Below, one piece after another: positions 1,191 to 33,700 of a stretch of DNA of 41,954 nucleotides. The position numbers and the translations under genes are program-made. This DNA is from a virus. Positions within the stretch are counted from its first letter, which is position 1. Each line of letters begins with the position of its first letter. The DNA lies in IMG/VR virus record IMGVR_UViG_3300030450_000681, positions 1 through 41,954 of that record, one strand, 5' to 3'. The notes below the pieces were generated by a model, which ran no database searches, was not told where the DNA came from, and saw only the letters and a list, made by a program, of their open reading frames with translations.

Positions 1191-1814
1191 GTGAAGATTG
1201 AAAAGATAGAAGTAGAGAAAGTTGGAATACCAAAAATAAATAGTCTTCCTACTACTCCTCAAATAACAAGAGAATTAAATGTAGAAAAGCCAGGGTTTGA
1301 TTTTATCTTTCCGTTCTTTGAACCGATGAGATATAACCCTGTAAAAATGCAAACTTTAAAAAAACCTCCTACCCCTACACCCCCTGACGACAATTCTAAA
1401 TCGCAAAAAAACAAGAAAGATAATGACTCGGATGTAAATACTGGATTGGTTGATTTAGGTGATGGAGAAATTGAATGTCCAGCTAAAGATCAACAGTATC
1501 GGTTAGGGGATATAAGAAATGCAAAGGCGAAAGAGAAGGTGATTGGATTTGAAGTAGTTGGTGATAAGTGCCTTGAGATATGGGGGCCAACTAATATTGC
1601 AGATAAATATCTACCAAGTCCTTCTGTCGCTGCAACAACATTTGGAATCACTTTAGTAGCTACCAGCGCAACTCTTTTGACTCCTATCTTGACCAAAGCA
1701 TTGAAGCCAATATTTAAAAAATTAATAGCTAAAGTTAAAAAAATGATTGGTAAAAAACAAAAAGTATTATCTACTTTTGAGCGTCGGAAGTTACAGAGAG
1801 ATCGGAAGAAATAG
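1191..1814 (+). CDS. Membrane protein with basic C-terminal tail, unknown function
   Basis: A 207-residue protein beginning with GTG immediately after the preceding stop. It has a soluble N-terminal half with a proline-rich linker (residues 59-66), two cysteines (96 and 127), one hydrophobic segment at about 146-171, and a strongly basic C-terminal tail of Lys and Arg. The long N-terminal part plus a positive inside tail suggests an N-out, C-in topology. The last 44 bases overlap, tail to tail, the 3' end of the minus-strand gene at 1771-2451. It is the third and last gene of the small membrane operon; the family is not recognised. Confidence 0.7.
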   Translation: MKIEKIEVEKVGIPKINSLPTTPQITRELNVEKPGFDFIFPFFEPMRYNPVKMQTLKKPPTPTPPDDNSKSQKNKKDNDSDVNTGLVDLGDGEIECPAKDQQYRLGDIRNAKAKEKVIGFEVVGDKCLEIWGPTNIADKYLPSPSVAATTFGITLVATSATLLTPILTKALKPIFKKLIAKVKKMIGKKQKVLSTFERRKLQRDRKK

Positions 1815-2451
1815 CATGAGTATGTTTCACATTAGGAGGAGAAACTACTTTTACATCTGCACAAATCTTTGCCATTTCTCCAGTAAAAATAATACCCTCC
1901 TTAATGTATTTTCCACAACTTGCTAATCTCGACATTTCATAATTTAACCGCTTTGAAGCTAGGGATGCTTCATATAATTCAACTTGTCTTTGCATCCCAA
2001 GCTTGCAAAGCTTCTGGTATCTGAAAGATAATGGAATACTGAATGTAGCGGTTATGCCGCCGTTCAAACTTGTATTAGACTCTTGCATCCCTGTTCTTAC
2101 TGACTCTGTTCTGATTATTTTAGTAGGCTCATCTGGTTCGCCGTCTCCAATAGGATTATTATCTGCATCAAAAGCACCCTCTATATCTTTAGTTGAATAG
2201 ATAGGTCTAGAATAATACGGCTGATAAGGCGACCCAAAGCTATTGGTATGACTAAGGAATGGCGATATATTTAATGTTGCTCCTTGACAAACTTGATTAG
2301 CTCCTAACTGGTACTGGAACTGCCTTGAGGGGACTATTTGTACGGCTTGATTAACAACAGAACCTGTAGATTGTGAGCTTGTATTAATACTTTGTGCGAA
2401 GGATTTAACAGGTAAAGTAATAAATAAAAGAGCTAAATAAAGATGCTTCAT
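1771..2451 (-). CDS. Secreted cysteine-containing protein, unknown function
   Basis: A 226-residue protein with a clear signal peptide (Met-Lys-His, hydrophobic core, Ser-Phe-Ala-Gln cleavage site near residue 19-20). The mature part has four cysteines (55, 149, 179, 197), suggesting two disulfides in the periplasm or outside the cell. An acidic loop around residues 95-107 (Asp-x-Asp-x-Asn then Asp-Gly) resembles a calcium-binding loop. Residues 128-200 form a Gly-Ile-Thr-Ala-Thr-Phe-Ser-Ile-Pro strand followed by long helices. I recall similar C-terminal blocks in marine cyanophage unknowns. It is the last gene of a four-gene minus-strand operon and starts in a 4-base overlap with the gene before it. 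Confidence 0.75.
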   Translation of the reverse strand: MKHLYLALLFITLPVKSFAQSINTSSQSTGSVVNQAVQIVPSRQFQYQLGANQVCQGATLNISPFLSHTNSFGSPYQPYYSRPIYSTKDIEGAFDADNNPIGDGEPDEPTKIIRTESVRTGMQESNTSLNGGITATFSIPLSFRYQKLCKLGMQRQVELYEASLASKRLNYEMSRLASCGKYIKEGIIFTGEMAKICADVKVVSPPNVKHTHAISSDLSVTSDAQK

Positions 2452-2885
2452 TGAAAAGTACTCGTACTATCTGAAATACTTTCTATGGTTTGCTCCTCAA
2501 TTATTTTTGTCATAGATTTTATGCCTGGTGTTTCTAGCGTTTCATAGTAACTAAAGGATGCACCTTCGCTAACTATTGAGTACTGAGGCTTAGTTGAGAG
2601 ATCTGGCATGACGTAAGTTGTAGCGACTCCTGATACAGTTCCTGGTGTTTTAACAAACCCTGAAGGTGCAATATTTGTTGTTGATGGTTTGACGTTGACC
2701 CCACCAACTGTCAGGCTATACCCTGTCCTGAATTCATAAATAGTCAAGTCACGATTGATCACACTTTTAGTTTCGGTGTGATTATTTAAAACTCCCTGCT
2801 GAAAATTTGGCACTATCTTTTCTGCCCTAACTTGTGGGGCAAAAATAATAAATAGAAGTGCAATCTTAGTCCACTTTGATTTCAT
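2448..2885 (-). CDS. Secreted protein, unknown function
   Basis: A 145-residue protein with a predicted signal peptide (Met-Lys-Ser-Lys, hydrophobic core, cleavage after Val-Arg-Ala near residue 21). The mature part has no cysteines and alternates short hydrophobic and Ser/Thr/Gly stretches, which looks like a beta-rich fold, and ends in Ser-Thr-Ser-Thr-Phe-Gln. The start lies 20 bases inside the upstream gene; the end overlaps the downstream gene by 4 bases. The tight chain of overlaps says that this and its two secreted neighbours are made together. No known lysis, spanin or adhesin motif is visible. Confidence 0.72.
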   Translation of the reverse strand: MKSKWTKIALLFIIFAPQVRAEKIVPNFQQGVLNNHTETKSVINRDLTIYEFRTGYSLTVGGVNVKPSTTNIAPSGFVKTPGTVSGVATTYVMPDLSTKPQYSIVSEGASFSYYETLETPGIKSMTKIIEEQTIESISDSTSTFQ

Positions 2886-3348
2886 TAATTATCTGTCCTA
2901 GTGCAACAGTATTTGCCCCTCCCGCAGTTATTGTGAGCGCTTGATCAGTAATAGTTGAGGCAAGGCTGCCCGCCGTCCCAGAGGCCGTCGTAATAATGTC
3001 TGAGAAATTGGGCGTGGTTCCTGTAGTAACTGCGCTAGTTGGAACTACATCGCCAGTAGTCAGCGAAGCACTGAAACTAAATGCGGCCCCTGGAACGTCT
3101 TGAGTTACAGCAATCGCACCTGGAACATAAAGACCTGAAGTTACAGTCCCTGCTGAAATTGTGTTAGCCGTCGTGCCATCCGTCGTGTCAATTCCGCTGC
3201 CCGAAATAGAATACGATGTACCAACACGTTTTGCATGGGTCGCTGCGGCTCCCACAGTAAGAGAAGATGATTTAGAAATCGTATGCTGAATATCAGCACT
3301 AACTGGTAATGGTGCAGCTAATAGGAAAAGAATTAGTAGTCGTTTCAT
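2866..3348 (-). CDS. Secreted Ser/Thr/Gly-rich beta protein, unknown function
   Basis: A 160-residue protein with a textbook signal peptide (Met-Lys-Arg-Leu-Leu, cleavage after Val-Ser-Ala near residue 18). The rest is rich in Thr, Ser, Gly and Ala, has no cysteine and has a repetitive strand-turn pattern such as TAGSLASTITDQALTITAGG, typical of an extended beta fold exported to the envelope. The gene overlaps the membrane-protein gene upstream by 4 bases (ATGA type). It may assemble with the other secreted proteins of the operon at the host surface; this is inference from co-transcription only. Confidence 0.72.
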   Translation of the reverse strand: MKRLLILFLLAAPLPVSADIQHTISKSSSLTVGAAATHAKRVGTSYSISGSGIDTTDGTTANTISAGTVTSGLYVPGAIAVTQDVPGAAFSFSASLTTGDVVPTSAVTTGTTPNFSDIITTASGTAGSLASTITDQALTITAGGANTVALGQIINEIKVD

Positions 3349-3800
3349 GTTGTCTCCAAGCGACCACTAACAGGGTCAATAGGTTTCTTTGTGATTGGAT
3401 CAATCTTTGGTTTGTCAGCCCGAATTTCAATGGGTTGAAGGATTCTTACAACAGTTTCTGCACAGTTGTAGCTACTTCCACTACCATTTTGACCTTCTCC
3501 GTTTTCCCTTTTCTTCTTTTTGCTCATACCTCCTATCGAAATACCATAAGAAGCAAGCAGGTTTCCTAATAATCCAGCGCTATATGTAGCGTCTATACGT
3601 TGTTCAGGTATCTCCATCCCAAACATTTTTGGGGGCAATTTTATGTACGCAAGAGAAATTATTGCCAAGCACCACAAGGTCAAACTCGCTCTCACGACAT
3701 TTGATATATAGAACATGATCATCTCCTGGTATTCAGGAGTATCGTCCTCTTCTTCAGCTTTGATTACTTCTTTTTCTTTTGGTGGGGCGGTTGTTGCCAT
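3345..3800 (-). CDS. Membrane protein, possible holin-like, first gene of secreted-protein operon
   Basis: A 151-residue protein: an acidic N-terminal tail (residues 1-25), a transmembrane helix at about 28-54, a second weaker segment rich in Gly, Leu and Ala at about 72-92, a Lys-rich patch (94-100) and a polar C-terminal tail. Two helices separated by a short loop and followed by a basic patch fit a small phage holin, but no family-specific motif is visible and the tail is longer than usual. It opens the minus-strand operon; the palindrome at 3811-3824 sits about 10 bases upstream of its ATG. T7 also keeps lysis genes next to the terminase genes. Function is inferred with low certainty; the gene itself is well supported. 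Confidence 0.7.
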   Translation of the reverse strand: MATTAPPKEKEVIKAEEEDDTPEYQEMIMFYISNVVRASLTLWCLAIISLAYIKLPPKMFGMEIPEQRIDATYSAGLLGNLLASYGISIGGMSKKKKRENGEGQNGSGSSYNCAETVVRILQPIEIRADKPKIDPITKKPIDPVSGRLETT

Positions 3801-6189: not shown

Positions 6190-6258
6190 CCTCATCCTTT
6201 CTTCATTTGATACATACATGGGTGCAATCCTTAGTTTCTGATACTCACTATATTTCAC
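6040..6258 (-). CDS. Small acidic-tailed protein, unknown function
   Basis: A 72-residue protein with an N-terminal half containing YSEYQKLRIAPMYVSNEERM and a C-terminal third made almost only of Glu, Lys, Val and Asp (residues 52-72), likely a charged helix. It overlaps the upstream winged-helix gene by 4 bases, so the two are coupled, and lies between that gene and the large terminase. Its 3' side carries a 6-base-pair hairpin (TTCCAG/CTGGAA, around 6009-6026). The family is not recognised; a packaging- or terminase-accessory role is possible from position only. Confidence 0.65.
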   Translation of the reverse strand: MKYSEYQKLRIAPMYVSNEERMRLGIQRYGSDVPVAEYEKAKAAKDGTVAKKVEEVKEEVKEEEEDDSVDEG

Positions 6259-6629
6259 AAATCGTTTATTGCCTCCTCAAATTGACTTTGTAAATATCCT
6301 CGCCTCTTTACTCCTCCCACACTCGCAAAATGTGGATTCAATAAAAAGTAAACATCCCCACTCCTTTTCTCCCTAACTCTTACAACTAACAACTCCTTCT
6401 TTAACCTTCCCAACGACATTACACATACAGAATCTTTTATGTTCAACTTCCTCGCCAATGCCCTGGCAGTTAACCTAACTCTCCCCGTCCTCCAGTTCAT
6501 TTCACTAATTAATCCCACATATACAGCCATATCCCTTAACTCCAATCTCCTCTCACTTATTAACCCAAATACATTCTCAAATTCTTCTTGGTGAAGCATA
6601 ACAAAATTCTCGAATCCATTAGACTGCAT
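6255..6629 (-). CDS. Winged-helix DNA-binding protein (RepL/regulator-like)
   Basis: A 124-residue protein. Residues about 30-45 form a helix, LTARALARKLNIKDS (53-67) and SLGRLKKELLVVRV (72-85) look like the two helices of a winged helix, and YFLLNPHFASVGG (94-106) matches the wing and the following tyrosine/Asn-Pro motif seen in RepL-like and related plasmid or phage winged-helix proteins. It is the first gene of the minus-strand block, transcribed away from the divergence region, with a sigma70-like promoter at 6722-6749. Position and fold fit an early regulator, possibly controlling lysogeny, or a DNA-terminus/origin-binding protein. Fold is likely, role is inferred. Confidence 0.68.
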   Translation of the reverse strand: MQSNGFENFVMLHQEEFENVFGLISERRLELRDMAVYVGLISEMNWRTGRVRLTARALARKLNIKDSVCVMSLGRLKKELLVVRVREKRSGDVYFLLNPHFASVGGVKRRGYLQSQFEEAINDL

Positions 6630-6675
6630 TAGTCAGACCTCCTTGCCTTCTGACAGTCCCCTAACCCTAGGGTCA

Positions 6676-6712
6676 CTCCTGATTGGTGTTTGCGAAACGG
6701 CCCAGTCAGGGG
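6676..6712. repeat. Stem-loop in regulator leader
   Basis: CCTGATTGG (6678-6686) pairs with CCAGTCAGG (6702-6710), with one G-T pair, and the loop contains a second small hairpin, GTTT-GCG-AAAC. Read on the minus strand it would begin only a few bases after the predicted start of transcription of the winged-helix gene. The arm CAGTCAGGGGA is also found in the terminator-like hairpin behind the capsid gene. Confidence 0.55.
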
Positions 6713-6721
6713 AGGGGATCT

Positions 6722-6749
6722 TATATATGTAAAGTGAATCATACATCAA
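6722..6749 (-). promoter_or_regulatory. Sigma70-like promoter for the minus-strand block
   Basis: On the minus strand TTGATG (6744-6749) and TATATA (6722-6727) are separated by 16 bases, a good match to bacterial -35 and -10 boxes. Transcription would start near 6714 and read through the stem-loop into the winged-helix gene. Confidence 0.5.
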
Positions 6750-6897
6750 CACACCTGCATTTCAACTGCTTTCACAATTACCTACTTCGACTTGCACTAT
6801 GATCTCTATACTGGTAACAATAAAAATGTAGGTTCGTCCCCACCTACTAACGCAGAATAAAACAATACAACTTAAACTCCTCACACACAAAAAATCT

Positions 6898-6935
6898 GAC
6901 TCAGGGTTCGCATAATTCCCTGGGTCTTTTTTTTT
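6898..6935. terminator. Bidirectional rho-independent terminator
   Basis: GACTCAGGG (6898-6906) and CCCTGGGTC (6918-6926) form a 9-bp stem with one G-T pair and an 11-base loop, followed by nine T on the plus strand. On the minus strand the stem is followed by AGATTTTTTG, so it can stop transcription from both sides. No annotated plus-strand gene ends just before it. Confidence 0.75.
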
Positions 6936-6990
6936 CATTTTTTACCTCGCATTTTTAGGTGGGTACCTCTACAGCGCTTGGCGCTCATAC

Positions 6991-7065
6991 CCCCATAGCC
7001 CCCTTTAAAAAATCATAGAAAAATAAAAAAAGATCAAAAGAATCAATAAAAAAATGGCTATGGGG
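6991..7065. repeat. Inverted repeat around AT-rich core, candidate origin
   Basis: CCCCATAGCC (6991-7000) and its exact complement GGCTATGGGG (7056-7065) enclose 55 bases that are almost entirely A and T after the first three C. The right arm runs on into GGGGTGGGGTGGGG. An AT-rich core between perfect arms within a divergence region resembles a replication origin or a DNA-unwinding element; it could also be the packaging terminus. Confidence 0.5.
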
Positions 7066-7236
7066 TGGGGTGGGGTATATCTATCTAGTGACTGATTGAA
7101 TTGACAGAAGATTAACAATCCGATGGGTGAAGGAAAGAATGATGTGAGGTGGTCAGGGTGAGGTGTGAAGGGGTGGAGAGAAGGTGAGAGAGAGTGATAA
7201 TTGTTGTAGATAGAGAGTTTGCCTTAATGCCTTCTA

Positions 7237-7265
7237 TTGCCATCTTTGAGACAATCTGCTATATA
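7237..7265 (+). promoter_or_regulatory. Early sigma70-type promoter
   Basis: TTGCCA (7237-7242) and TATATA (7260-7265) are separated by 17 bases, with TG one base before the -10 box (extended -10). This is the best host-type promoter seen in the window and lies directly before the early gene cluster, as expected for genes read by host polymerase before the phage polymerase is made. Confidence 0.65.
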
Positions 7266-7277
7266 TAAATAACTGCA

Positions 7278-7291
7278 ATACACCAATGCAG
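7278..7291 (+). promoter_or_regulatory. Weak copy of the TGCAG palindrome, site C
   Basis: ATACACCAATGCAG keeps the right arm; a full CTGCA left arm occurs at 7273-7277 but with a 9-base spacer instead of 4. It lies between the early promoter and the ArdC start. Degenerate, so it may not be functional. Confidence 0.25.
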
Positions 7292-7313
7292 AACAACAAC
7301 CACCAACAACCAA
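7292..7313 (+). promoter_or_regulatory. CA-rich leader before ArdC
   Basis: AACAACAACCACC followed by AACAACCAA, ten bases before the ATG at 7323. No Shine-Dalgarno sequence is present between it and the start. The same element precedes the genes at 10976 and 11320. Confidence 0.5.
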
Positions 7314-7322
7314 TTAAGTCTT

Positions 7323-8267
7323 ATGGCTACTAAAGAAAGAACTAAGAAGGCAGCAAAACCAACACCAGAAGAAAAGCTATGTGGGGAATTAATTGAGTTA
7401 ATGGAAAAGGGAAAGAATCCCTGGAGAAAAGAATGGTTAAGTAAGAATGACGGAAGGCATCAGAATTTAATTACAGGTAATTTTTACCATGGTGGAAATG
7501 TGGCATTGCTTGAGATGTACGCAATGGCAAGGGACTATGAAGAAGCCTTGTGGTTAGGTGCTAATCAGGGAATCAAGGCTGGTCTAAGAATTAAGAAAGG
7601 AAGTAAGGCTGTTTATATAACTAGACCACAGTTGAACGCTAAGGAAGTAGAAGACAAGAACGGAAAGCCAAAGCTAGACAATGATGGCAATCCTGTTATT
7701 GCTGCATGGACTAGTTATAAGGCTTGTGCAGTATTTCATGTTTCCTGCTTTGAAGGTGAAGGGTTAGAGGAAATGAAGAAGAAAGCACTAGGAGAAGAAC
7801 AAGTAAGGAATGAAGAGCCTAAGCGCTTAGAGGACTGCGAAAATGCTGCTAAGGCATATCACAAGCAAGAAGAGCTTGAGACTGTCTGGATTGGTTCTAG
7901 AGCGTGTTACAAGCCCTCTAGAGATCAGATCAACATACCTGAAAGAAGATTGTTTGATAACTCAGAAGCTTTATATGCAACTTGGTTTCATGAAATGGTT
8001 CATTCAACTGGACATGAATCAAGGCTTAATAGATTAAAGGCTGCAAGCTTTGGAAGTAGTGAATATGCAAAGGAGGAATTAGTCGCAGAACTTGGCGCTT
8101 TTCTTATATGTCATAGGTTGCAGATTAGTTCTAATACAACTAACCATGCTGCTTATTTAAACAGTTGGATTAGTTCACTTAGACAAGACCCTAAATATCT
8201 ATTTAAAGCACTAGGAAAGGCTACAAGCGCAGTAAATAGAATCTTAGGAAGTGAGGTTACTAAATAA
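7323..8267 (+). CDS. ardC: ArdC-like antirestriction protein with metallopeptidase domain
   Basis: A 314-residue protein of two domains. The N-terminal half (about residues 15-150) matches the ArdC N-terminal single-strand-DNA-binding domain, including NPWRKEW near 32-38, a gap, TGNFYHGGN (51-59) and a WTSYKACAVFHVSCF core (129-143). The C-terminal half is a zincin-type metallopeptidase with HEMVHSTGH (223-231) followed by EELVAELGA (251-259), supplying the usual His ligands and the extra Glu. ArdC proteins protect incoming DNA from host restriction. Being the first gene after the early promoter fits entry-phase defence. It lacks a Shine-Dalgarno element and instead follows a CA-rich leader. 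Confidence 0.88.
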   Translation: MATKERTKKAAKPTPEEKLCGELIELMEKGKNPWRKEWLSKNDGRHQNLITGNFYHGGNVALLEMYAMARDYEEALWLGANQGIKAGLRIKKGSKAVYITRPQLNAKEVEDKNGKPKLDNDGNPVIAAWTSYKACAVFHVSCFEGEGLEEMKKKALGEEQVRNEEPKRLEDCENAAKAYHKQEELETVWIGSRACYKPSRDQINIPERRLFDNSEALYATWFHEMVHSTGHESRLNRLKAASFGSSEYAKEELVAELGAFLICHRLQISSNTTNHAAYLNSWISSLRQDPKYLFKALGKATSAVNRILGSEVTK

Positions 8268-11319: not shown

Positions 11320-12327
11320 ATGCTAGGAACTATCCGCAAAGCCCAGAAGGGCTATATCGTTGATGTCACTATCAATGGCGCTAGAAGAAAAACAAGTTGC
11401 AAGACAAAACAAGATGCACTTGCAAAACAAAAAGAATTTAACGAGTTATTTAAAAAGAAAGCTCAAAGAAAATCACCAGTAAAACTGCATATAACTTTAG
11501 GTGAAGCGCAGAAGTTAGCAGAACGAACAGTATGGAAAGACCTTGCTTCAATTAAGACTTGTATTGGTGGAAGTAATGAAATTATTAGATTTTTTGGCGA
11601 GGATTTTTTATTAAAAGATATAGATGCAACTCAGTGGAATGATTTCAGAGAAGATCAATTATCTGAGGACAGACAACCGACAACAGTTAATAAGAAAACG
11701 ACTTATTTAAAAGGGATGATTGGCGCTGCCATTACCTTTGGTCATTTAAAAGAATATCCAGTATTGCCACCAAACTTAAAAGATGTAAAAAGACCTAAGA
11801 GAGTATTTTCAGAAGAGGAAGAGGCTTTCTTTATTAAATACTGGACTGATTGCGGCTATATACAGTTGGCTGATCTATTCAAGTGGTCATTAGATATGTG
11901 TACGAGGTGGGGAGAATCTATGAGAGTAAAAGTTAAGCATGTAAATTTAAAAACCAAGGAAATTCTTATTTATAAATCAAAGAATGGAGATCCAAGAACT
12001 ATACCTATGACTAAACGAGCGTATGAAACAATTAAGCCTTGGGTAGAAGGTAAAAGAAAGGATGATTATGTATGGAGAGATGAGATTACTTACAACATTT
12101 TAAGAAGATTAATTAAAGAAGTTAAAAGAGAAATGGACTTGCAAGAGGATAAGCGATTGACTTGGCATTGCACTAGACATACTTGTGCCACAAAGATGGC
12201 AAAAGCTGGCGTTCCTCTATTAGAAATAAAACAATTTGGAGGATGGAGAAGTATTGCAGCAGTGCAAGTTTATTTACATACAAATACTATGGCTTTAAGT
12301 CGTTGCGTTGAGGCTCTTGAAAGTTAA
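11320..12327 (+). CDS. int: Tyrosine recombinase (phage integrase)
   Basis: A 335-residue site-specific recombinase. The N-terminal part (1-60) resembles an arm-binding domain, and residues about 60-155 a core-binding SAM-like domain. The catalytic domain has Arg196 in CTRWGE, a Lys in YKSKNG (219-221), His283 and Arg286 in WHCTRHT, Trp309 in GGWRS and the nucleophile Tyr318 in VYLHTNT, so the active site is complete. It ends with no gap at the 3' end of an antisense tRNA-Leu sequence, the normal arrangement for integration into a tRNA gene. A temperate or pseudolysogenic life style is therefore possible, as suggested for other marine T7-like phages with integrases. Confidence 0.93.
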   Translation: MLGTIRKAQKGYIVDVTINGARRKTSCKTKQDALAKQKEFNELFKKKAQRKSPVKLHITLGEAQKLAERTVWKDLASIKTCIGGSNEIIRFFGEDFLLKDIDATQWNDFREDQLSEDRQPTTVNKKTTYLKGMIGAAITFGHLKEYPVLPPNLKDVKRPKRVFSEEEEAFFIKYWTDCGYIQLADLFKWSLDMCTRWGESMRVKVKHVNLKTKEILIYKSKNGDPRTIPMTKRAYETIKPWVEGKRKDDYVWRDEITYNILRRLIKEVKREMDLQEDKRLTWHCTRHTCATKMAKAGVPLLEIKQFGGWRSIAAVQVYLHTNTMALSRCVEALES

Positions 12328-12413
12328 TACCAGCGACGAGACTTGAACTCGTACGACCATTGCTGATCTCAGGATTTTAAGTCCTGTGTGTCTACCAATT
12401 CCACCACGCTGGC
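12328..12413 (-). tRNA. tRNA-Leu (anticodon TAA), complete
   Basis: Read on the minus strand, the 86 bases fold fully. The acceptor stem is GCCAGCG/CGCTGGT (first pair G-U) with discriminator A. The D arm contains TGGTGGAATTGGTAGACACA, the anticodon stem is CAGGA/TCCTG with loop CTTAAAA (anticodon TAA), the variable arm is GATC/GGTC, and the T arm is ACGAG/CTCGT with loop TTCAAGT. CCA is not encoded. There is no group I intron, unlike many cyanobacterial tRNA-Leu(UAA) genes. All arms are intact, so the RNA could be functional and read UUA codons, common in this AT-rich genome, as well as forming part of attP. Confidence 0.92.
12328..12413. other. Probable phage attachment site (attP) within tRNA-Leu sequence
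   Basis: The integrase stop codon touches the 3' end of the tRNA-Leu sequence. Integrases of this class recombine within tRNA genes, and a marine T7-like cyanophage with an integrase was reported to carry a short match to a host tRNA-Leu gene. The exact crossover core cannot be set without the host sequence; here the identity with the host could cover the whole tRNA gene. Confidence 0.65.
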
Positions 12414-12461
12414 AAGTGGTTTTTACAATCCTATAACCCTAGGTGAAACTTGCCCACAATC

Positions 12462-12665: not shown

Positions 12666-15083
12666 GTGGAAAAGGAGGTAAAAAAGGAGGAATACGACGC
12701 AAACTTTCCATCCACTGAAACCATTTCGCTTCAGAAAAAACGTGAGGCCAGGGAGAAAGAAAATGCTAAATGGAAAGCAATTAATGACCGAGCAAAATTA
12801 AAAGCTCAGGGCAATGAAAGTGTTACTGAGTATGGAAGAGTTTTATTTAATGAGAACGCTGAAAAAATATCAATTGGCTTAGGAATATTATTAGAAGATC
12901 TTCTAGAAAATCCACATAAACCTGGGCCACATTTTGCTGCATGGCCTTTGCTTTTACATGTAACAAATAGAGGGCCAAGAACTATATCTTCAATTGCTTT
13001 AAGTGTGGTGCTAGACACCATTAGCGGTAGACCTTATGAAAATGATTTAGCTAAAGGGATAGGCCGAGCATTAGAGGATGAGTTAAGAGCAGGAAAAATA
13101 GAGAAAATGAACCCTCACTTGATGCGTTTAATCAAGAAAAAGAAGGGGCCAAAAGCTTTAAGTAACAAAAGAATATTGCAGCAGCTACGGATTGAGGATG
13201 AACGTTGGACAACAATTCAGCAGAAAGAGGTCGGAGGTTTATTACTTCAGGTCATTGTTGCTCATACAAATCTGATTGAGATCTTGCCTTTAAGTAACAA
13301 GGGAAAGATCAAAACGATTGTTGATGCAACAGAAGCAACGCAGGAAATTATCAAAAGGAACCCACCAAGACCAACACCAATAAGAAGGCTGCCTTTATTA
13401 ATCAAGCCTGAACCTTGTTGGAGAATGTATAGACCACTAGATAATAAACCTTTCATCAGGTCAAAGAATGACATTAGTTACATCACCAATGAAGATTTAA
13501 AGGTAATTAAAAAGCCAGTCCATCACCTAGAGGGACAAGCGCTAGAAATCGACAAAAGGATGGTGGATGATATGAGAACTGCGTGGGACTGCAATATTCG
13601 TGGGTTATTTCCAGTCCAACGTGACCCCAAAGAAGAGCCTGTACCACCAACAGAACACATAGGATCAGAGGCATATAAAAATTATGTAAAAGAGAGATGG
13701 GCAGCACAAAAAGATCGCAACAATGGTGCAGGGATTAGAAATAAAATTGAACAAGACATAAGGGAATTAGAAGAGGTCGCAGGACGTACTGTTTACAACC
13801 AATATTTCGCAGATCAAAGAGGAAGAATCTACACATTGAATAAACTTGCAACACATCAAGGGCCAGATTGGTCTAAGGCTTGTATTAATTTTGCTAAGGG
13901 TAAACGCTGTAGTGAAGAGGGCTTTTCGTGGTTATTAAAGGCAGCAGCAGGACACTATGGAATCAATGATATTTGGCTAGGACGATATGTATGGGGGGAA
14001 GAACATCTTAAAGAGATGTGTGCGGTAGCTGAAGCGCCGTTAGACCATCTTGAGTTATGGAGAGATGCAAAAGATAAGTGGCAATATCTACAACTGTGCA
14101 GGGCTATTAAAGAACAGATCGACAATCCAAATAGTATTTCTAAATGTCCAATCAGATTAGATCAATGCTGTAGTGGCGTTGGAATCTCAAGCATGTTGAC
14201 TGGAGATCATAGATTGGCGACTTGGACAAATTGTATTGGTGATAGAAAAAGCGATTTATATCAAGTCATTGCTGATCAAGTTCATTTAGCAGTTGCTAAA
14301 GATCTACAGACCAGCCCAACAAATAAAAAACATGCAGAACTTTGGCTTGATTATGGAATAGATAGATCGTTAATGAAACTTCCTTGTATGACTGCGATTT
14401 ATGGGGCGCAATACTTGGGATTAGTAGATTATTTAGTTATGAAATTAGAAGAGAAAGCACCAGACAAAATGGTTTATGACTGGCAACATCATTACCTTTC
14501 TCCTGCTGGTTACTTGGCTAAAAAAATAAAACTGTCATTAGATCTTAATTTAGGAACAAGTTTCGACTTGGACAGGTGGTTAAAGTTAGTTGCTAAACAA
14601 CTTTTAGAACAGAACAGGAAGATTAAATGGACATCTCCTATTGGCTGGCCTATTGAATTAGGTGATGAGATTGACCAAAGAAAGAGCGTTCACTCGTTAA
14701 CAAGAGGCAAAAGGAAATGGACACCTTGGAACGAATACGAAAATAAAGATCTTTTCTCTGCTCGTATTACTAGGCGCTCAATTATGGCGAACACCATCAC
14801 TAGCTTTGATGCTGCGATATGCCTCAAAGTAGTCTCCACATGTAGAGAATTAAATATGCAAATCCTTACAAATCATGACTGTTTTGCAACCATCCCAACT
14901 GACGCTGAGATGTTACATAAGATGCTTTTGAAACAGCTTAATGATACATTTCAAACGCACTGGCTAAAAAGAATGAGGAAAGAAATGTTGATTAATACTG
15001 GGGTTAAGAGTATTCCATACCCACCAGTACAGAAAACCATTTCGTGTCTAAGACCTGGAGAGAACCCATACGCTTATTCCTAG
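12666..15083 (+). CDS. Phage single-subunit DNA-directed RNA polymerase (T7 gp1-like)
   Basis: An 805-residue T7-type RNA polymerase, somewhat shorter than T7 gp1 (883). Visible motifs: GRALEDELRAGKI in the N-terminal domain, DQRGRIY (from Asp383), DQCCSG with the first catalytic Asp499, KLPCMTAIYGAQ with Lys571 and Tyr579 in the same 8-residue spacing as T7 Lys631 and Tyr639, and HDCFATIP with the second catalytic Asp738. All catalytic residues are present. It transcribes middle and late genes from its own promoters; the repeated palindrome described here is a candidate. Start is GTG directly after the upstream stop; strong AGGAGG runs lie inside the first codons, but no later start is near. 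Confidence 0.96.
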   Translation: MEKEVKKEEYDANFPSTETISLQKKREAREKENAKWKAINDRAKLKAQGNESVTEYGRVLFNENAEKISIGLGILLEDLLENPHKPGPHFAAWPLLLHVTNRGPRTISSIALSVVLDTISGRPYENDLAKGIGRALEDELRAGKIEKMNPHLMRLIKKKKGPKALSNKRILQQLRIEDERWTTIQQKEVGGLLLQVIVAHTNLIEILPLSNKGKIKTIVDATEATQEIIKRNPPRPTPIRRLPLLIKPEPCWRMYRPLDNKPFIRSKNDISYITNEDLKVIKKPVHHLEGQALEIDKRMVDDMRTAWDCNIRGLFPVQRDPKEEPVPPTEHIGSEAYKNYVKERWAAQKDRNNGAGIRNKIEQDIRELEEVAGRTVYNQYFADQRGRIYTLNKLATHQGPDWSKACINFAKGKRCSEEGFSWLLKAAAGHYGINDIWLGRYVWGEEHLKEMCAVAEAPLDHLELWRDAKDKWQYLQLCRAIKEQIDNPNSISKCPIRLDQCCSGVGISSMLTGDHRLATWTNCIGDRKSDLYQVIADQVHLAVAKDLQTSPTNKKHAELWLDYGIDRSLMKLPCMTAIYGAQYLGLVDYLVMKLEEKAPDKMVYDWQHHYLSPAGYLAKKIKLSLDLNLGTSFDLDRWLKLVAKQLLEQNRKIKWTSPIGWPIELGDEIDQRKSVHSLTRGKRKWTPWNEYENKDLFSARITRRSIMANTITSFDAAICLKVVSTCRELNMQILTNHDCFATIPTDAEMLHKMLLKQLNDTFQTHWLKRMRKEMLINTGVKSIPYPPVQKTISCLRPGENPYAYS

Positions 15084-15143: not shown

Positions 15144-15791
15144 ATGCCTCAATCTTCAGTGACTCCAAAAGGAGAGTCAGTTTTCGCCTGTGTATTAGGA
15201 GAACCGAGAGAGAACAAATTCACTCCTGGTCAAAGAGAATGGACAATGGGTATTCGTTTTAAACCTGAAGAATGTAAGTACCTTCAAAAACAAGTCGATG
15301 ATTTTGTCGCTGAATCTCATGGCAAAAAGAAGTTAGCGGCACATGGTCTTCCTTATGAACCTGAATCATTCACTAATGAGCAAGGGGAATTACAGCTAAC
15401 TGGGTATGTGAAATTTAAGTTCAAAAGAAAAGAAAAGAATAAGCATGGGGACTTATTGGGTGCGCCTAAAGTAGAAGATGCAAACTTAAGAACTTGGCCT
15501 GAAGATAAATTGATCGGCAATGGCAGCATTGTTAGAGTTGCCTACAGGATTTTTCCTTATAACCAAGGTGGTTTAGGTGTTGGTCTATTTCTTATAGGCG
15601 TTCAGGTCTTAAAGCACGTTGAATATGATCCTGACGCAAACATCTTTAGCGTTGATGAAGAATATGCAGAAACTACATCTGAATTTGAGGCGGTAGGCAC
15701 ACCATCTTCATTGAATGTTGATGCTACAAATGCACAAGATCAAATCGCAAAAGCAGCAGCAAACTTGAATCAAGAAGGTCTTCCATTTTGA
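15144..15791 (+). CDS. Single-stranded DNA-binding protein (T7 gp2.5-like)
   Basis: A 215-residue protein with an OB-fold-like pattern: GESVFACVLGEPRENKFTPG near the N-terminus, a long beta-rich core with LTGYVKFKFKRK (about 94-105) and IVRVAYRIFPYNQGGLGVGL (about 132-151), followed by an acidic, disordered C-terminal tail ending in Gly-Leu-Pro-Phe. An acidic tail with final Phe is the feature through which T7 gp2.5 contacts its replisome. It lies first in the replication module, as in T7, and overlaps the next gene. No Shine-Dalgarno sequence is visible; the operator-like palindrome and a palindrome half site precede it. Confidence 0.82.
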   Translation: MPQSSVTPKGESVFACVLGEPRENKFTPGQREWTMGIRFKPEECKYLQKQVDDFVAESHGKKKLAAHGLPYEPESFTNEQGELQLTGYVKFKFKRKEKNKHGDLLGAPKVEDANLRTWPEDKLIGNGSIVRVAYRIFPYNQGGLGVGLFLIGVQVLKHVEYDPDANIFSVDEEYAETTSEFEAVGTPSSLNVDATNAQDQIAKAAANLNQEGLPF

Positions 15792-16162
15792 TTAAAGATA
15801 AAGTTGCAGAATTTACTTTTTATGTTCCTTTAAAGAGTAAAGAAAGACCTCGCTTTGGTGTGAAAAATGGTAAGCCTATGCCTCCATATATGTCCAAAGA
15901 ATATAAACAATGGCAGGCAGATTTAAAGGCACAAATGAGGGAGTGGTGGACTGCACCTCCCTTAGAAAGGGTTAAACAAGTTACCCTCCATTTCGGTGGC
16001 CCTGCAAGACATGACGGCGATAACTTATGTGGCGCTGTCTTAGATGCTGGCAAAGGTATTATTTGGTCTGATGACCGAGTAAGCATCATGCCTCATGGCG
16101 TTTGGATATGGAGCAAAACTAAACCTAAAGACTCGTACATTCATTTACAGGTAACTTACTAA
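15788..16162 (+). CDS. rusA: RusA-type Holliday junction resolvase
   Basis: A 124-residue endonuclease starting with TTG that overlaps the SSB stop. The family signature is clear: KERPRFG (18-24) and a Tyr-rich helix near the N-terminus, then ARHDGDNLCGAVLDA with acidic residues 76 and 78, and IIWSDDRV with acidic residues 95-96, corresponding to the three catalytic Asp of RusA (70, 72, 91). It resolves branched DNA and would debranch replicating or concatemeric DNA before packaging. In T7 the same position is held by the unrelated endonuclease I (gp3), so this is a functional replacement. Confidence 0.85.
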   Translation: MIKDKVAEFTFYVPLKSKERPRFGVKNGKPMPPYMSKEYKQWQADLKAQMREWWTAPPLERVKQVTLHFGGPARHDGDNLCGAVLDAGKGIIWSDDRVSIMPHGVWIWSKTKPKDSYIHLQVTY

Positions 16163-16728
16163 TGCAATGCCCAAAATGTAGAAAAACAAATACCAAAGTA
16201 ATGGAAACTCGTAAACACGCAGAGTGTGATATGAGGGTCAGAATGTGCTTGGACTGTAGTTTTAAGTTCTCAACAATGGAACGTGTTTGCGTGTCTGTTG
16301 GTGAGCCTTTCGGAGTCTGTGAAGTAAGTCCAGTTCAACCAAACAAGGTTAAAAGAACAAGAGTCGCAGCACTTCCTTCAGGTGAAAAATATGTAGCCAA
16401 GGAGGACGCTGAAGTTTTAGATGGCATCGCTATAGATGTTCGACCATTGATCTGTAAATGGTGGAATGAAAGTAGATGGCTTAAGCAAAAGAGCAAAGCT
16501 GTTTGGTCAAGAGATGCTTTTACTTTGAGTGTTCAACGGTTATATGGATTGCCTTCTTACTTGCAAGAGGAATTGGCTAAGGCTGGCATTGAACATGGTT
16601 GGCAAGCTTTAAAACTTAGCTATATCAACCATGCTCCTGAAGAAACACCTAGCCCAGGAGGAGGTTTAGCTCCTAAAGATCCAGCTATGAATGAGGCAGT
16701 GAGGGAATGGCGAAACAAAGCAAGCTAA
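16162..16728 (+). CDS. Zinc-ribbon protein, possible replication initiator
   Basis: A 188-residue protein. The N-terminus is a zinc ribbon like that of NrdR (Cys3, Cys6, Cys29, Cys32, with METRKHAECDMRVRMC between). The C-terminal half (about 90-170) contains CKWWNESRWLKQKSKAVWSR and AKAGIEHGWQALKLSYI; similar Trp-rich and GWQxL endings occur in phage replication proteins. It lies where T7 has primase-helicase gp4, so it might also be a relic or functional stand-in for its zinc-binding domain. Overlaps on both sides tie it to the replication operon. Zinc binding is well supported, the replication role is inferred. Confidence 0.65.
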   Translation: MQCPKCRKTNTKVMETRKHAECDMRVRMCLDCSFKFSTMERVCVSVGEPFGVCEVSPVQPNKVKRTRVAALPSGEKYVAKEDAEVLDGIAIDVRPLICKWWNESRWLKQKSKAVWSRDAFTLSVQRLYGLPSYLQEELAKAGIEHGWQALKLSYINHAPEETPSPGGGLAPKDPAMNEAVREWRNKAS

Positions 16729-17153
16729 CCATCCAAACATTCTTAGCAGCATCCGAGATGATAGCTGCACACTTAAGAATTAAAGAAGCTGATCGGTGGT
16801 CGGCTCAAATATCTCAACTAAAGTTTGTCTCTTTTTCTCAAGCCTACCCAGAGGTAAGTCAAGAACAATTTTTATGGGCTTCTGAGCAGTTTGTTCAGAC
16901 AACAACTAATAAAGATTTCCTGCGCTATCCCACTTGGGATGAGTTAATGACATTTCTTTACAGGATTGAGAACGGAAAGCCTAATAGAAGTTGGGGATTC
17001 AAAGAAAACCTGCCTCAAATGTGTCAACCTGTCCCAAATCAATTGGCCCTAATGCCACCTAAGCCAGCATCCAATTATGAACCACCAGATAAAGAAAACA
17101 AACAGGCTTACAAAACTTTTAAAGCTAACCGAACGCTCAAAGGAGGGAATTGA
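16707..17153 (+). CDS. Possible helicase-loader-like replication protein
   Basis: A 148-residue protein: a helical domain with EADRWSAQISQLKF (about 27-40), SQEQFLWASEQFVQ, then KDFLRYPTWDELMTFLYRIE (about 73-92) and a proline-rich, poorly ordered C-terminal half. The order Trp-helix, second helix, then Phe-x-x-x-Pro before a helix with two aromatic residues resembles the layout of lambda P-type helicase loaders, but the similarity is only of pattern. It follows the zinc-ribbon protein with a 22-base overlap, the usual initiator-loader order in phages that borrow the host helicase. Function is a hypothesis. Confidence 0.55.
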   Translation: MAKQSKLTIQTFLAASEMIAAHLRIKEADRWSAQISQLKFVSFSQAYPEVSQEQFLWASEQFVQTTTNKDFLRYPTWDELMTFLYRIENGKPNRSWGFKENLPQMCQPVPNQLALMPPKPASNYEPPDKENKQAYKTFKANRTLKGGN

Positions 17154-17374
17154 TGGACAAGTTAATCGACGATTCCCAGTTAATAAGAATTTTAGAACGT
17201 GGGCTTCTCAGTGGGAAATGGTCTATCGCTCAATTCAATAAAGGGAAGACTAATGGGAGGATACCAAGCGATAAATTTTTAAAAGAACATCCAGAATTTA
17301 ACGACTTTAACTTTAGAGATCTAAAAACATTTAATGAACAACATGGGAAAAACAATTCCAGCTACCTTTCGTGA
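17150..17374 (+). CDS. Small protein, unknown function
   Basis: A 74-residue protein with a short N-terminal helix (LIDDSQLIRILERGLLSGKW) and a polar remainder. A strong AAAGGAGGG site precedes the ATG, which overlaps the previous stop. The next gene begins inside its last 40 bases. Conserved tiling in the replication operon supports expression; family not recognised. Confidence 0.6.
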   Translation: MMDKLIDDSQLIRILERGLLSGKWSIAQFNKGKTNGRIPSDKFLKEHPEFNDFNFRDLKTFNEQHGKNNSSYLS

Positions 17375-17552
17375 TCCTTTCTTAGGTGATCACAAACTTT
17401 TTCGTGTGCGATATAACTCGCCAAAGATGAGAAATGGAAGTGCTGAGATCTTAGTCACAGCAGGTAACGCAGCCGACGCAAAAAGAAAAGCAGTTGCCCA
17501 ACTTTCTAAAGAGCATCCTAATATAAGAGTCATTGTTGTAGGAGAAAGATGA
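17334..17552 (+). CDS. Small beta-alpha protein, unknown function
   Basis: A 72-residue protein; ATG 17343 is an alternative start three codons in. The sequence KLFRVRYNSPKMRNGSAEIL is strand-like, and AGNAADAKRKAVAQLSKEHP (about 43-62) is a helix before a final strand RVIVVGE, a compact alpha-beta fold. It overlaps the upstream gene and ends just before the exonuclease gene with GGAGAAAG serving as that gene's binding site. No known function. Confidence 0.6.
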   Translation: MNNMGKTIPATFRDPFLGDHKLFRVRYNSPKMRNGSAEILVTAGNAADAKRKAVAQLSKEHPNIRVIVVGER

Positions 17553-17553
17553 T

Positions 17554-18300
17554 ATGAAGATGGCATTAATTGATGCAGAATTATTCTCTATTAAAGCTGC
17601 ATTTGCAACAGAAAATTATACATTATGGGACCCAGAAAACCACCCTGATACATGGCATTACACCATTGATTATCAAGAAGCTTTAGCTAACTTTACCGAC
17701 CAACTACACACTATTAATGATCTATTACCTGAGTATGGATTAGTACTTTGTTGGGGTCAGGGTAAAAGCTTTCGTTATGACGTTTGGGATACCTACAAAA
17801 GTGATCGAAAAAAGAAATTAAGATCAATTCCAGCAGGGTACGCAGAGTTTAAAAAGAAACTGCAAGAGAAATTTCCTTCTGCTGCTTTAGAAGGAATTGA
17901 AGGTGATGATGTTATGGGTGTTTTGTATTGTCCAAATGATGTGATTGTTTCTGAAGATAAGGACATGTTGACTATCCCTGGGCTACATCTCAGAGGTGGA
18001 GAGTTAGTAGAAGTTACAAAATATGCAGCCGATCATGCTTTTTTTACTCAATGTTTATCTGGAGATGCAACAGATTCTTATCCTGGCTTAAAAAAATGTG
18101 GGAAAGTAGGTGCTAGTAAAATACTTGCTAAATGTAAAAATGAAAATGATATGTGGCACAGCGTTTTAGCCGCTTATGAGAAGGCAGGATTTGATGAAAG
18201 ATTTGCTTTAAGTCAAGCAAGATGCGCTCGAATATTAAGGCAAGGAGAATACAACTTAAAAACTAATACTCCCCTAATTTGGAATCCACCGATAAACTGA
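17554..18300 (+). CDS. 5'-3' exonuclease (T7 gp6-like, FEN family)
   Basis: A 248-residue nuclease. Family features: ALIDAELF with the first acidic ligand near the N-terminus, YDVWDTYKSDRKKK with the Arg/Lys of the arch (about 74-87), EGIEGDDVMGV (about 114-124) and VSEDKDMLT (about 131-139) as metal-binding clusters, then SGDATDSYPGLKKCGKVGASKIL (about 167-189), written here as family H3TH motif, which binds duplex DNA. T7 gp6 removes RNA primers and degrades host DNA for reuse. It ends the replication module, in the same order as in T7, although the polymerase that normally precedes it is missing. Confidence 0.9.
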   Translation: MKMALIDAELFSIKAAFATENYTLWDPENHPDTWHYTIDYQEALANFTDQLHTINDLLPEYGLVLCWGQGKSFRYDVWDTYKSDRKKKLRSIPAGYAEFKKKLQEKFPSAALEGIEGDDVMGVLYCPNDVIVSEDKDMLTIPGLHLRGGELVEVTKYAADHAFFTQCLSGDATDSYPGLKKCGKVGASKILAKCKNENDMWHSVLAAYEKAGFDERFALSQARCARILRQGEYNLKTNTPLIWNPPIN

Positions 18301-30778: not shown

Positions 30779-33700
30779 ATGTCACTATTTAATCTAAAAC
30801 CATTCGAGAAAGAAGAGCTTCAAGATATGAAGCCTGCTGAAATAGATTTTGCAGAAAGAAGAGAGAAATCAATAGAAAGAGCAGAGGAAGATGCTGGTGT
30901 ATTGAAGCCGTTAGTTCAGTTCTATAACGTAGGAACCTCGCCTGACATGAACTTAGGCGCAGGACTGGGAGGCGTTGTTAATGGAGTTAGTAAACTTACC
31001 AACTCACTAGGAGATGTTTTATTTAAAAACGAAAGACATGCAGGAACATGGCGTGGTAATCCCGTTGTCTCATTGATGGAAGGATTATTGGTTGAGGGTG
31101 AATTAGAGAGAAGAGGGGATCAAGTAGATACTTCTGATGCTTGGCTGATCTCTGACGAGGCAAGACGATCATTCAGGAAGCCAATGATAGATGGAAAGAA
31201 AGGCGTACTGGTGCAAGGTAAGGATCAAGGCATTACTCCTGCTGATGATTTTGGCTTGATGATGTCAGGTGAAGTAGCAGGAGAAGCTATTGGTATTTAC
31301 CTTGGATATGGAATTTTAAAGAACCTAAAGAGAACAGCTTTCTTTGCTCATAATGCAAGGAGATTTAGAAATACCAAGTTAGCCAAAGACCTTGCTGTTA
31401 CAGCACAAAGAACAGACAGGGTAGGGAAGTTAACTAGGGCAGGAATTAAAGGAACTACCTTTACAGCAGAGGCAGGCTTTGAACAGTTCTGGGCTAGTCC
31501 TTTTCTTGACCATGACAACGATAATTTCTTAGGTGTATTTCCTGAAAGCGATTTTTTTCAGTTATTAGGGCAACAAGAAGAGGGTGATAATTATCTAACA
31601 AAATTCGGAAAAAGTATTCCAGCTAATACGTTTGCGGTACTACCTGTTCTTGGTTTTTCAGCAGCAGTCAAGCCATTAAGAAAAGCCATGCTTAGTGGCA
31701 ATTTTGATTGGGTACAGGAACTTGGCAGAGCAGAGCTTGACCCATACCTACCTCATATCAATACCACTGATTATTTAGCTTTACCTGAATACAAGAAAGG
31801 TGGTTCATTAGTTCCTTCTGAAGCTGGCCCAATTACTCCAGCCGAGAAAGGTGGGGCAATGGTTCAAACCCCTGGTGGCCCTATCACTAAATACGATTCA
31901 GCTATCAGTAGAAGCCTTGACGAACAAACCCAAATTAATCAAGTCAAAGAGCAGAGAGAACGGCTAAAAAATATGGGCTTAACTGAGGTTGGAGATGGAA
32001 ACCAACTTGAATTATCAGTTGGCAAAGTTGTAGAACCAGAAGTCAAACTTGCCATAGATGCAATAAGAAAACAAAGACATGCACTTATTAAACAAGCAGC
32101 AGAAACAGGAGAAGATCTATCAAAAGAATTTGATGAATTAGATATAAAACAACAACAAGTTTTAGATCAAGGATTAGGGGGTAAAAGTGGTGAAGATCTT
32201 ATGGGTGCAAGACCTGGAATACAGCTAGAGCTACCTGATCCAAGACCAGAAGTAGACACTTATCTCGCAAACTTAGATGAGCTTAGTGATGATCAGTTAA
32301 GGACTTTATTTAACGATGTTTCTGAACCTTCTAGGAGACAACAACAACTAGACAACCTAAAGGCTGAATCTGACAAAGTTGCTGCTATTGAAGCGAAATT
32401 AGCTGAGATACAAGAGAAGATAGATCTTGGTGCAGATAAGGGCGGATATACACCCGTAGGAGGAAAACGACAACTAAACAAAGTCCAAAAAGAATTAGAA
32501 ATAGCACAGCAAAACCTAGACAGATTAAAGGAATCAAATCAAACTAGCCGTCCATTAGTAGGTGATCAACTTAAATTAGTTTTAGATGAAGGTGTTGCAC
32601 CAGATACACCAGCATCAAAAGGTGATTGGTCTGATAAGGACTTTGATTTTCAAAGAAGAGCCTTTGACGATGAAAAAGGTTTAAATCGTTTTATTGCAGC
32701 GCTTGATCGTGCATTTGGGCATGAATGGATAGATCAGCCAGTAGAAAGAATTGGAGATATGTTGAATGTTTTAAATCTTGGAAAAGTATTAACTGAAGAG
32801 AGTGTCAAAAAAGCAGGAAGAGATATAAGTGCTTTAACACCATTAGCAAGACAACTCCTTGAGAAAGCAAGAGAACTAAAGAAAAAAGGAATCAAGATTA
32901 AGCCTGAACCAAAGACAAAGATACAACCACCAAGTCCAGAACAAGTCACCTATTACAGAGAGCTTTTGTCTGAGCTTGGCAGAGATGATTTGAGATCAAT
33001 TGCTTCTCCATCTAACAGTCCTGAAGTTGCTGCAATTGTTAAACAAAGAACAGGTCGAAGAGTTTGGTCAGCCAAAAAACAAGACATCATCAATGCTTTT
33101 GTTGAGTATTACGAGAAATCAGGGAGATTTATAAAACTAGAACAACAGAAACAGCTTAGTTTGAAACTTGGCGATACACGTTCTACAACACCGCTAACAA
33201 GATTAGTTGATGATGATGGAACGGTAAGTGTTCAACCAACTGGTGAATACATCCCAAGAGGAATGGGTGCTGATGCAAGAGAAGCAATGAAGGCAGACAT
33301 CTTAAAAATTGCTATTGAAAATGGAGAGATACAAGCACCTAAAACACCATTACCAGAATCACCAATAACTAACTTCAATCAAGGTTCATTTATTGATGAT
33401 TTGTTAACTGATGAATCAGGTCAAATGGCATTGCTATATGCAACTGACCAACTACCTACATATAAAGCAAGCGGCAAGAATCAAGGCGCACTTATAGAAG
33501 AAATGAGATTGAGATATGAATATCTACTAAAAGATGAGTTTGGTAAGAAAGCAGTTAGAGATGCGAAGTTGGCTTATGAAGGATGGGACACAATGACATG
33601 GGAACAAAAGAAAGCACGACTTGGTGGAGGAAATGTATTTGATCCAGAGCTAGAAATTAAACAACCAAGAGAGCCAAATGTTTATAAAGATTCAACTGAA

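Follow-up and report, generated by a model that had tools for sequence, protein, structure and literature searches.

A three-gene cassette in place of the primase-helicase in a T7-like podovirus lineage without its own DNA polymerase

The replisome of bacteriophage T7 is the textbook example of a minimal, self-contained phage replisome. Among its relatives, the MPP-C cyanopodoviruses P-SCSP1 and P-SCSP2 are T7-like phages without a DNA polymerase gene, for which their authors have proposed host PolI, host Pol III or a divergent polymerase, and a primase-helicase is one of the nine MPP-C core genes (Cai et al. 2022, PMC9860041). Here we describe a virus genome, IMG/VR record IMGVR_UViG_3300030450_000681, positions 1–41,954 (hereafter the window, meaning the whole 41,954-nucleotide stretch analysed), which has neither enzyme, and in which three small genes, hereafter the cassette, stand where T7-like relatives carry the primase-helicase gp4. 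The window and MPP-C are both polymerase-less, but MPP-C keeps the primase-helicase that the window lacks; capsid identity between them is only 35–38%, and they are separate lineages. Closer to the window are S31-C1 (Nohivirus) and S37-C6 (Oinezvirus), which share its backbone, its order of single-stranded DNA-binding protein (SSB), RusA resolvase and Zn ribbon, its gp6-like exonuclease and its lack of a PolA-type polymerase; they differ in having gp4, with Toprim and DnaB_C domains, where the window has the cassette. Closest of all are S-SRP02 (MW822601; PMC8790148) and the uncultured Stopalavirus S38-C3 (AP013548), which belong to the same lineage and carry the same module, likewise with no PolA and no gp4, although S-SRP02 has a beta-clamp-like gene in its early region where the window has a gene for ArdC.

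The replication module lies at 15144–18300 as one tight block, in which neighbouring genes overlap by 1–41 nt or are separated by a single 1-nt gap. Together with the RNA polymerase (RNAP) gene just upstream, it comprises the following features:

12666–15083, plus strand: single-subunit RNA polymerase (T7 gp1-like), the module's upstream neighbour (phrog_414, E 4e-103; PF00940, E 5e-45)
15144–15791, plus strand: gp2.5-like SSB (phrog_112, E 1e-12; PF21265 below cut-off)
15788–16162, plus strand: RusA-type Holliday-junction resolvase, in place of gp3 endonuclease I (PF05866, E 5e-9; phrog_140, E 2e-12)
16162–16728, plus strand: ZnR, cassette gene 1, an NrdR-type zinc ribbon with a helical C-terminal domain, 188 aa (PF22811, E 9e-7)
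16707–17153, plus strand: g16707, cassette gene 2, a 148-aa three-helix protein without a Pfam, PHROG or NCBIfam family; its gene overlaps that of ZnR by 22 nt
17150–17374, plus strand: g17150, cassette gene 3, a 74-aa protein with ILERGLL.G.WSI..FN...NFRD, found in 143 of 143 g16707 loci and 0 of 128 gp4 loci
17334–17552, plus strand: a variable 72-aa open reading frame (ORF) outside the conserved cassette, with BLAST matches in the closest relatives only
17554–18300, plus strand: gp6-like 5'-3' exonuclease, a homologue of the PolI N-terminal domain without the polymerase domain (PF02739, E 1e-10; phrog_107, E 2e-45)

Neither g16707 nor the two small ORFs after it matched a Pfam or PHROG family; the exonuclease aligns with residues 3–210 of 889 in PolI models. 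The module has the hallmarks of T7-like (Autographiviridae) replication modules, with single-subunit RNAP, gp2.5 SSB and gp6 exonuclease in order, and its gene order and coordinates are as an earlier reading of this DNA, made from the sequence alone and without database searches, had given them.

That sequence-only reading had also held that gp4 and gp5 are absent and that RusA replaces gp3, and both claims are borne out by profile searches. Across six frames of the window there were zero matches to the gp5 family-A DNA polymerase (PF00476), the gp4 primase-helicase (PF03796 DnaB_C, PF13155 Toprim) or gp3 endonuclease I (PF05367); all four profiles do find targets in outgroup phages or control genomes, PF05367 in the outgroup phages and in one cassette phage, L055. 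PHROG scans of the window's main ORFs returned no polymerase, primase or helicase, and the Pfam and PHROG check for PolA and DnaB/gp4 families found none in the window. The contention that no other large ORF is unassigned is correct in substance, the 1058-aa ORF at 30779–33955 having no PHROG hit but being, judged by its position and its synteny with S-SRP02, an internal virion protein. The record is a linear contig, with the break falling within a fibre gene. In a relative, G012, the sequence continues across this junction, leaving about 1.6 kb from g433 to the fibre genes, and a 2-kb polymerase gene is therefore not expected in the window's gap; a polymerase hidden there is ruled out as far as the relatives allow. 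The complete genomes of S-SRP02 (cultured, circular) and S38-C3 likewise lack PolA and gp4. The absence of DNA polymerase and primase-helicase in the window is real. The gene that the S-SRP02 paper labels 'DNA polymerase I' (L002:22389–23129, L002 being S-SRP02) encodes 246 aa with gp6-like 5'-3' exonuclease domains only and no PF00476 match; the paper's tree was built from three genes, 'DNA polymerase' among them, and in the passages searched the lack of a replisome is not taken up (PMC8790148).

Relatives of g16707 and ZnR were collected from IMG/VR, GTDB and GenBank, and further gp4 phages were gathered by scanning with the gp4 proteins of S31-C1 and S37-C6. Hits to g16707 occur in 143 loci and hits to gp4 in 128, with none containing both; these are counts of loci and not of independent lineages, and collapsing identical matched DNA cuts them to 82 and 119. 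The C-terminal domain of ZnR, g16707 and g17150 are found all together in 142 of the 143 g16707 loci and in no gp4 locus, and the relatives show the order RNAP-SSB-RusA-ZnR-g16707-g17150-exonuclease with few departures. In S31-C1 and S37-C6, gp4 is flanked by a small free-standing Zn-ribbon ORF on one side and the exonuclease on the other; by locus comparison, the two proteins that had been named as standing in for the missing enzymes occupy gp4's exact place in these sister phages. A profile search for PolA gave none in 18 + 37 phage records of relatives (two further records with PolA hits are whole assemblies of metagenome-assembled genomes (MAGs), and the hits were taken as chromosomal). 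PolA is absent from all 25 close gp4 records and present in 8 of the 10 distant ones. Loss of the DNA polymerase is a clade trait. Since the close gp4 phages are already without PolA while most of the distant ones keep it, PolA was probably lost first and gp4 then displaced by the cassette. The RNAP tree groups 31 cassette entries in a single clade (99) that neighbours the gp4 clade (92); L055 falls outside on a very long branch. The exonuclease tree is messier, needing three changes for the cassette label, so that there may have been anything from one to three swaps.

The backbone of L055 is divergent (RNAP 27%, portal 42% identity), but its g16707 is well kept (58%), and its gp3 slot holds, beside the cassette, a true T7 endonuclease I (L055:8964–9425; PF05367, E 7e-23) and not RusA. 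Thus, the gp3/RusA swap is independent of the gp4/cassette swap, and transfer of the cassette from one backbone to another is probable. Conservation of g16707 exceeds that of RNAP, SSB, RusA, ZnR and exonuclease in each of the six tabulated relatives, which would fit a protein that binds a conserved partner in the host.

The window covers nearly the whole genome of a T7-like podovirus that looks temperate and belongs to the S-SRP02/Stopalavirus lineage. Homology and synteny with this lineage extend over both module and structural genes in the same gene order, with identities of 45% for RNAP, 47–49% for the exonuclease and 80% for the capsid, and the structural and packaging proteins of G012 are mostly 85–98% identical to those of the window. 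Upstream of RNAP are an integrase, a tRNA-Leu and a MarR-type regulator, and the structural genes follow downstream in a normal T7-like layout. The full-length tRNA-Leu(UAA) (12327–12414, minus strand; ARAGORN) abuts the stop of the integrase gene and is likely the att site, which points to a life style that is temperate or involves integration. The host is probably cyanobacterial, as suggested by the relative S-SRP02, a Synechococcus phage with Synechococcus SR-C1 as its laboratory host. A host search of GTDB found only two MAG contigs with relatives, one in a Cyanobium MAG (L127, JAIXOF010000111.1) and one in a 'Sphingomonadaceae' MAG (L128, RFPL01000019.1). Both look like phage contigs binned with their MAGs; the second is probably a binning error, and the 'bacterial' best hits of S-SRP02 are therefore probably binning errors too. 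A separate four-gene block without known function (1771–3800, minus strand; PHROGs 848, 650, 564 and 2714) is common to the window and S37-C6, where it is annotated as gp161/gp165-like.

How, then, would such a phage replicate its DNA? The cultured S-SRP02 carries this gene set and grows, so the set and host functions together suffice for growth, and because growth proceeds without a polymerase, primase or helicase of the phage's own, those of the host must be used. Sister phages load their own gp4, whereas cassette phages must load host DnaB, which makes the cassette the obvious candidate. It thus appears fairly probable that the cassette recruits host DnaB and Pol III, the phage keeping its own RNAP, SSB, resolvase and exonuclease. 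In the mechanism that we envisage, the phage would transcribe with its own RNA polymerase, and ZnR would bind the phage origin, or single-stranded DNA opened by that polymerase. Host DnaB would be brought to the ZnR-bound site by g16707, synthesis would be carried out by host DnaG, Pol III and clamp, and SSB, exonuclease and RusA would serve recombination, primer removal and concatemer processing. We infer the use of the host replisome, and the role given to each cassette protein is a guess from gene order, size and analogy. A fuller proposal, which we put forward tentatively, is that a transferable three-gene cassette, consisting of an NrdR-type Zn-ribbon organiser, a 148-aa non-AAA+ helical recruiter and a 74-aa partner, non-homologous to known initiators and loaders, commandeers host DnaB and Pol III and, in a widespread T7-like clade, has taken the place of the primase-helicase.

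The analogy is with lambda O/P and SPP1 G38P/G39P, pairs from phages that have no polymerase of their own and in which the loader gene comes directly after a small initiator gene, abutting or overlapping it. It extends to the three-helix layout and [F/Y]-P motif of g16707. The AF2 model of g16707 (pLDDT 88, pTM 0.81) is a plain three-helix bundle with a tail, its helices at 9–22, 33–46 and 52–65 being followed by an F-x-R-Y-P-T-W-x-E-L motif (F or Y at the first position). By eye this layout resembles G39P and the middle of lambda P, and there are weak fold matches in BFVD (E 0.7–5, TM 0.33–0.44), the named ones being a G39P N-terminal domain, five replisome organizers and a putative helicase. 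ZnR, in an alignment of 47 sequences, combines an NrdR-type ribbon at aa 1–40 with a helical C-terminal domain bearing an invariant WW...R...W...GW..L (W100, W101, R105, W115, G146, W147, L150); its AF2 model (pLDDT 83) shows the ribbon and helices at 94–112, 117–125 and 132–145. The 'GWQxL-type end' that had been noticed in this protein is present as a motif but is not terminal, since about 38 residues follow it. ZnR is not NrdR: sequence and fold searches of the PDB match the NrdR ribbon only, and the ATP-cone of NrdR is missing, TIGR00244 being covered at positions 1–45 of 147 only, far below cut-off. By analogy, we regard g16707 as a candidate recruiter or loader of host DnaB, and ZnR as a candidate origin-binding or organiser protein.

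The polymerase recruited would more likely be host Pol III than PolI, as judged from a beta-sliding-clamp-like protein of about 230 aa. Of 31 polymerase-less relatives, 11 encode it, phages of the gp4 type as well as of the cassette type, and every PolA-bearing phage tested lacks it. In a profile search of the PDB nearly all hits of this protein are beta clamps (best E 2e-4). Its C-terminus reads ...LLMPVQIR, and DnaN proteins end in a similar motif. The gene lies in the early region (L002:10903–11607 in S-SRP02; also in relatives L025, L096, L102, L103, L106, L201, L211 and L277). At that place the window has the gene for an ArdC-type anti-restriction protein (7323–8267; ArdcN and MPTase-PolyVal), the first gene of its rightward early region.

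A number of results weigh against the recruitment of host DnaB and Pol III by the cassette. The window itself has no beta-clamp-like gene by profile search. No PDB entry matches g16707 by sequence or fold, and in hhalign comparisons its similarity to SPP1 G39P (9 sequences) lies within column-shuffled controls, 38 of 150 shuffles being as good or better, while for lambda P, represented by a profile of only 3 sequences, 138 of 150 were; homology with either is rejected at the level of sequence. The resemblance of the ZnR C-terminal domain to that of lambda O fares no better, 188 of 200 shuffles being as good (hhalign). Hits to phrog_678 ('replication initiation O-like') in 8 of the 47 ZnR members (best E 0.0016) are downgraded as a sign of O-likeness, because ZnR aligns at profile positions 202–284 and lambda O covers 4–216 only. 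Nor did Pfam hits, Inhibitor_G39P included, appear in any of 46 g16707 members. The differences from lambda and SPP1 are these: there is no sequence-profile similarity, the N-terminal winged helix of lambda O is not in ZnR (Pfam and AF2 model), where a Zn ribbon stands instead, repeats in the module are short, scattered and chance-like with no lambda-type iterons, and the window phage has its own RNA polymerase. The description of g16707 as laid out like a helicase loader finds weak support in its layout by eye and its weak BFVD matches, and none in sequence-profile similarity or PDB folds; the structure prediction suggested for it gave the three-helix model and an empty PDB fold search.

Two features outside the module may also concern initiation. 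The first is the following:

6630–7322, non-coding, about 690 bp, no strand assigned: candidate origin or divergent promoter region (conservation, GC skew)

This region is strongly conserved in two relatives and has an AT-rich core. Its GC skew changes abruptly near 7040, and it holds the window's cumulative-skew minimum and an inverted repeat (CCCCATAGCC / GGCTATGGGG); a hairpin in it is not significant (z -1.4), and its assignment is speculative. The second is the gene adjoining TerL (6255–6629, minus strand). Its homologues, or the genes in the corresponding position, in S-SRP02 and S37-C6 have matches to the winged-helix part at the N-terminus of phrog_678 (E 0.002 and 5e-8), and it could encode an origin-binding or regulatory protein.

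An alternative that we consider unlikely is that the cassette is a regulator or host-takeover module, with the replisome entering only through RNAP-made R-loops or PriA restart, or with synthesis by host PolI. RNAP-primed initiation is the established T7 way and speaks for it, as does the ribbon of ZnR, which matches NrdR (PF22811, TIGR00244 in part, PDB NrdR chains) and is annotated 'transcriptional regulator NrdR'. Host PolI is, moreover, one of the options raised for MPP-C (PMC9860041). Nevertheless, ZnR is without the NrdR ATP-cone, and strict exclusivity with the primase-helicase in about 270 loci is unexpected of a pure regulator. Still less probable is a divergent primase or primase-helicase substitute with its own catalysis, in which the Zn ribbon would be a primase zinc domain and g16707 the catalytic part, so that the polymerase alone is borrowed. 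The cassette does sit at gp4's exact position, S31-C1 and S37-C6 already have a free-standing Zn ribbon ahead of gp4, and g16707 has conserved acidic residues (D29, E49, E60, E88). However, proteins of 188, 148 and 74 aa are small for a helicase, none has a P-loop, Toprim or primase profile match, and the model of g16707 is a plain bundle; the gp4 of S31-C1 has a primase zinc domain of its own (weak PF08273 hit), and its separate NrdR-type ribbon is therefore something else. Finally, it is very improbable, and largely refuted, that polymerase and helicase are present yet were missed, in the gap, as too divergent, or because the record is defective or a satellite: a very divergent enzyme does lie beyond exclusion by profiles and the contig is cut, but G012 crosses the gap, S-SRP02, which is cultured, and S38-C3 are complete and without the genes, and gp4 and PolA are easily found where present.

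Host-replisome borrowing thus remains the most economical reading. The sequence-only reading had seen in it an unusual hybrid of the T7 and lambda strategies; the borrowing remains probable, S-SRP02 growing with the same set, but polymerase-less T7-like phages have a precedent in MPP-C (PMC9860041). What was already known are polymerase-less T7-like cyanopodoviruses; what appears new is the additional loss of the primase-helicase with the cassette in its place. In a literature search, with subscription journals outside its scope, we found no paper noting the loss of both polymerase and primase-helicase, or describing the cassette. As a marker gene for cyanopodoviruses the DNA polymerase is ill suited, and the label 'DNA polymerase I', which entered a published tree (PMC8790148), is corrected here. 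Related phages now stand at three stages, with polymerase and primase-helicase, with primase-helicase only, and with neither but the cassette in place. They form a natural series for the switch from an own to a host replisome, of which a cultured member, S-SRP02, is available.

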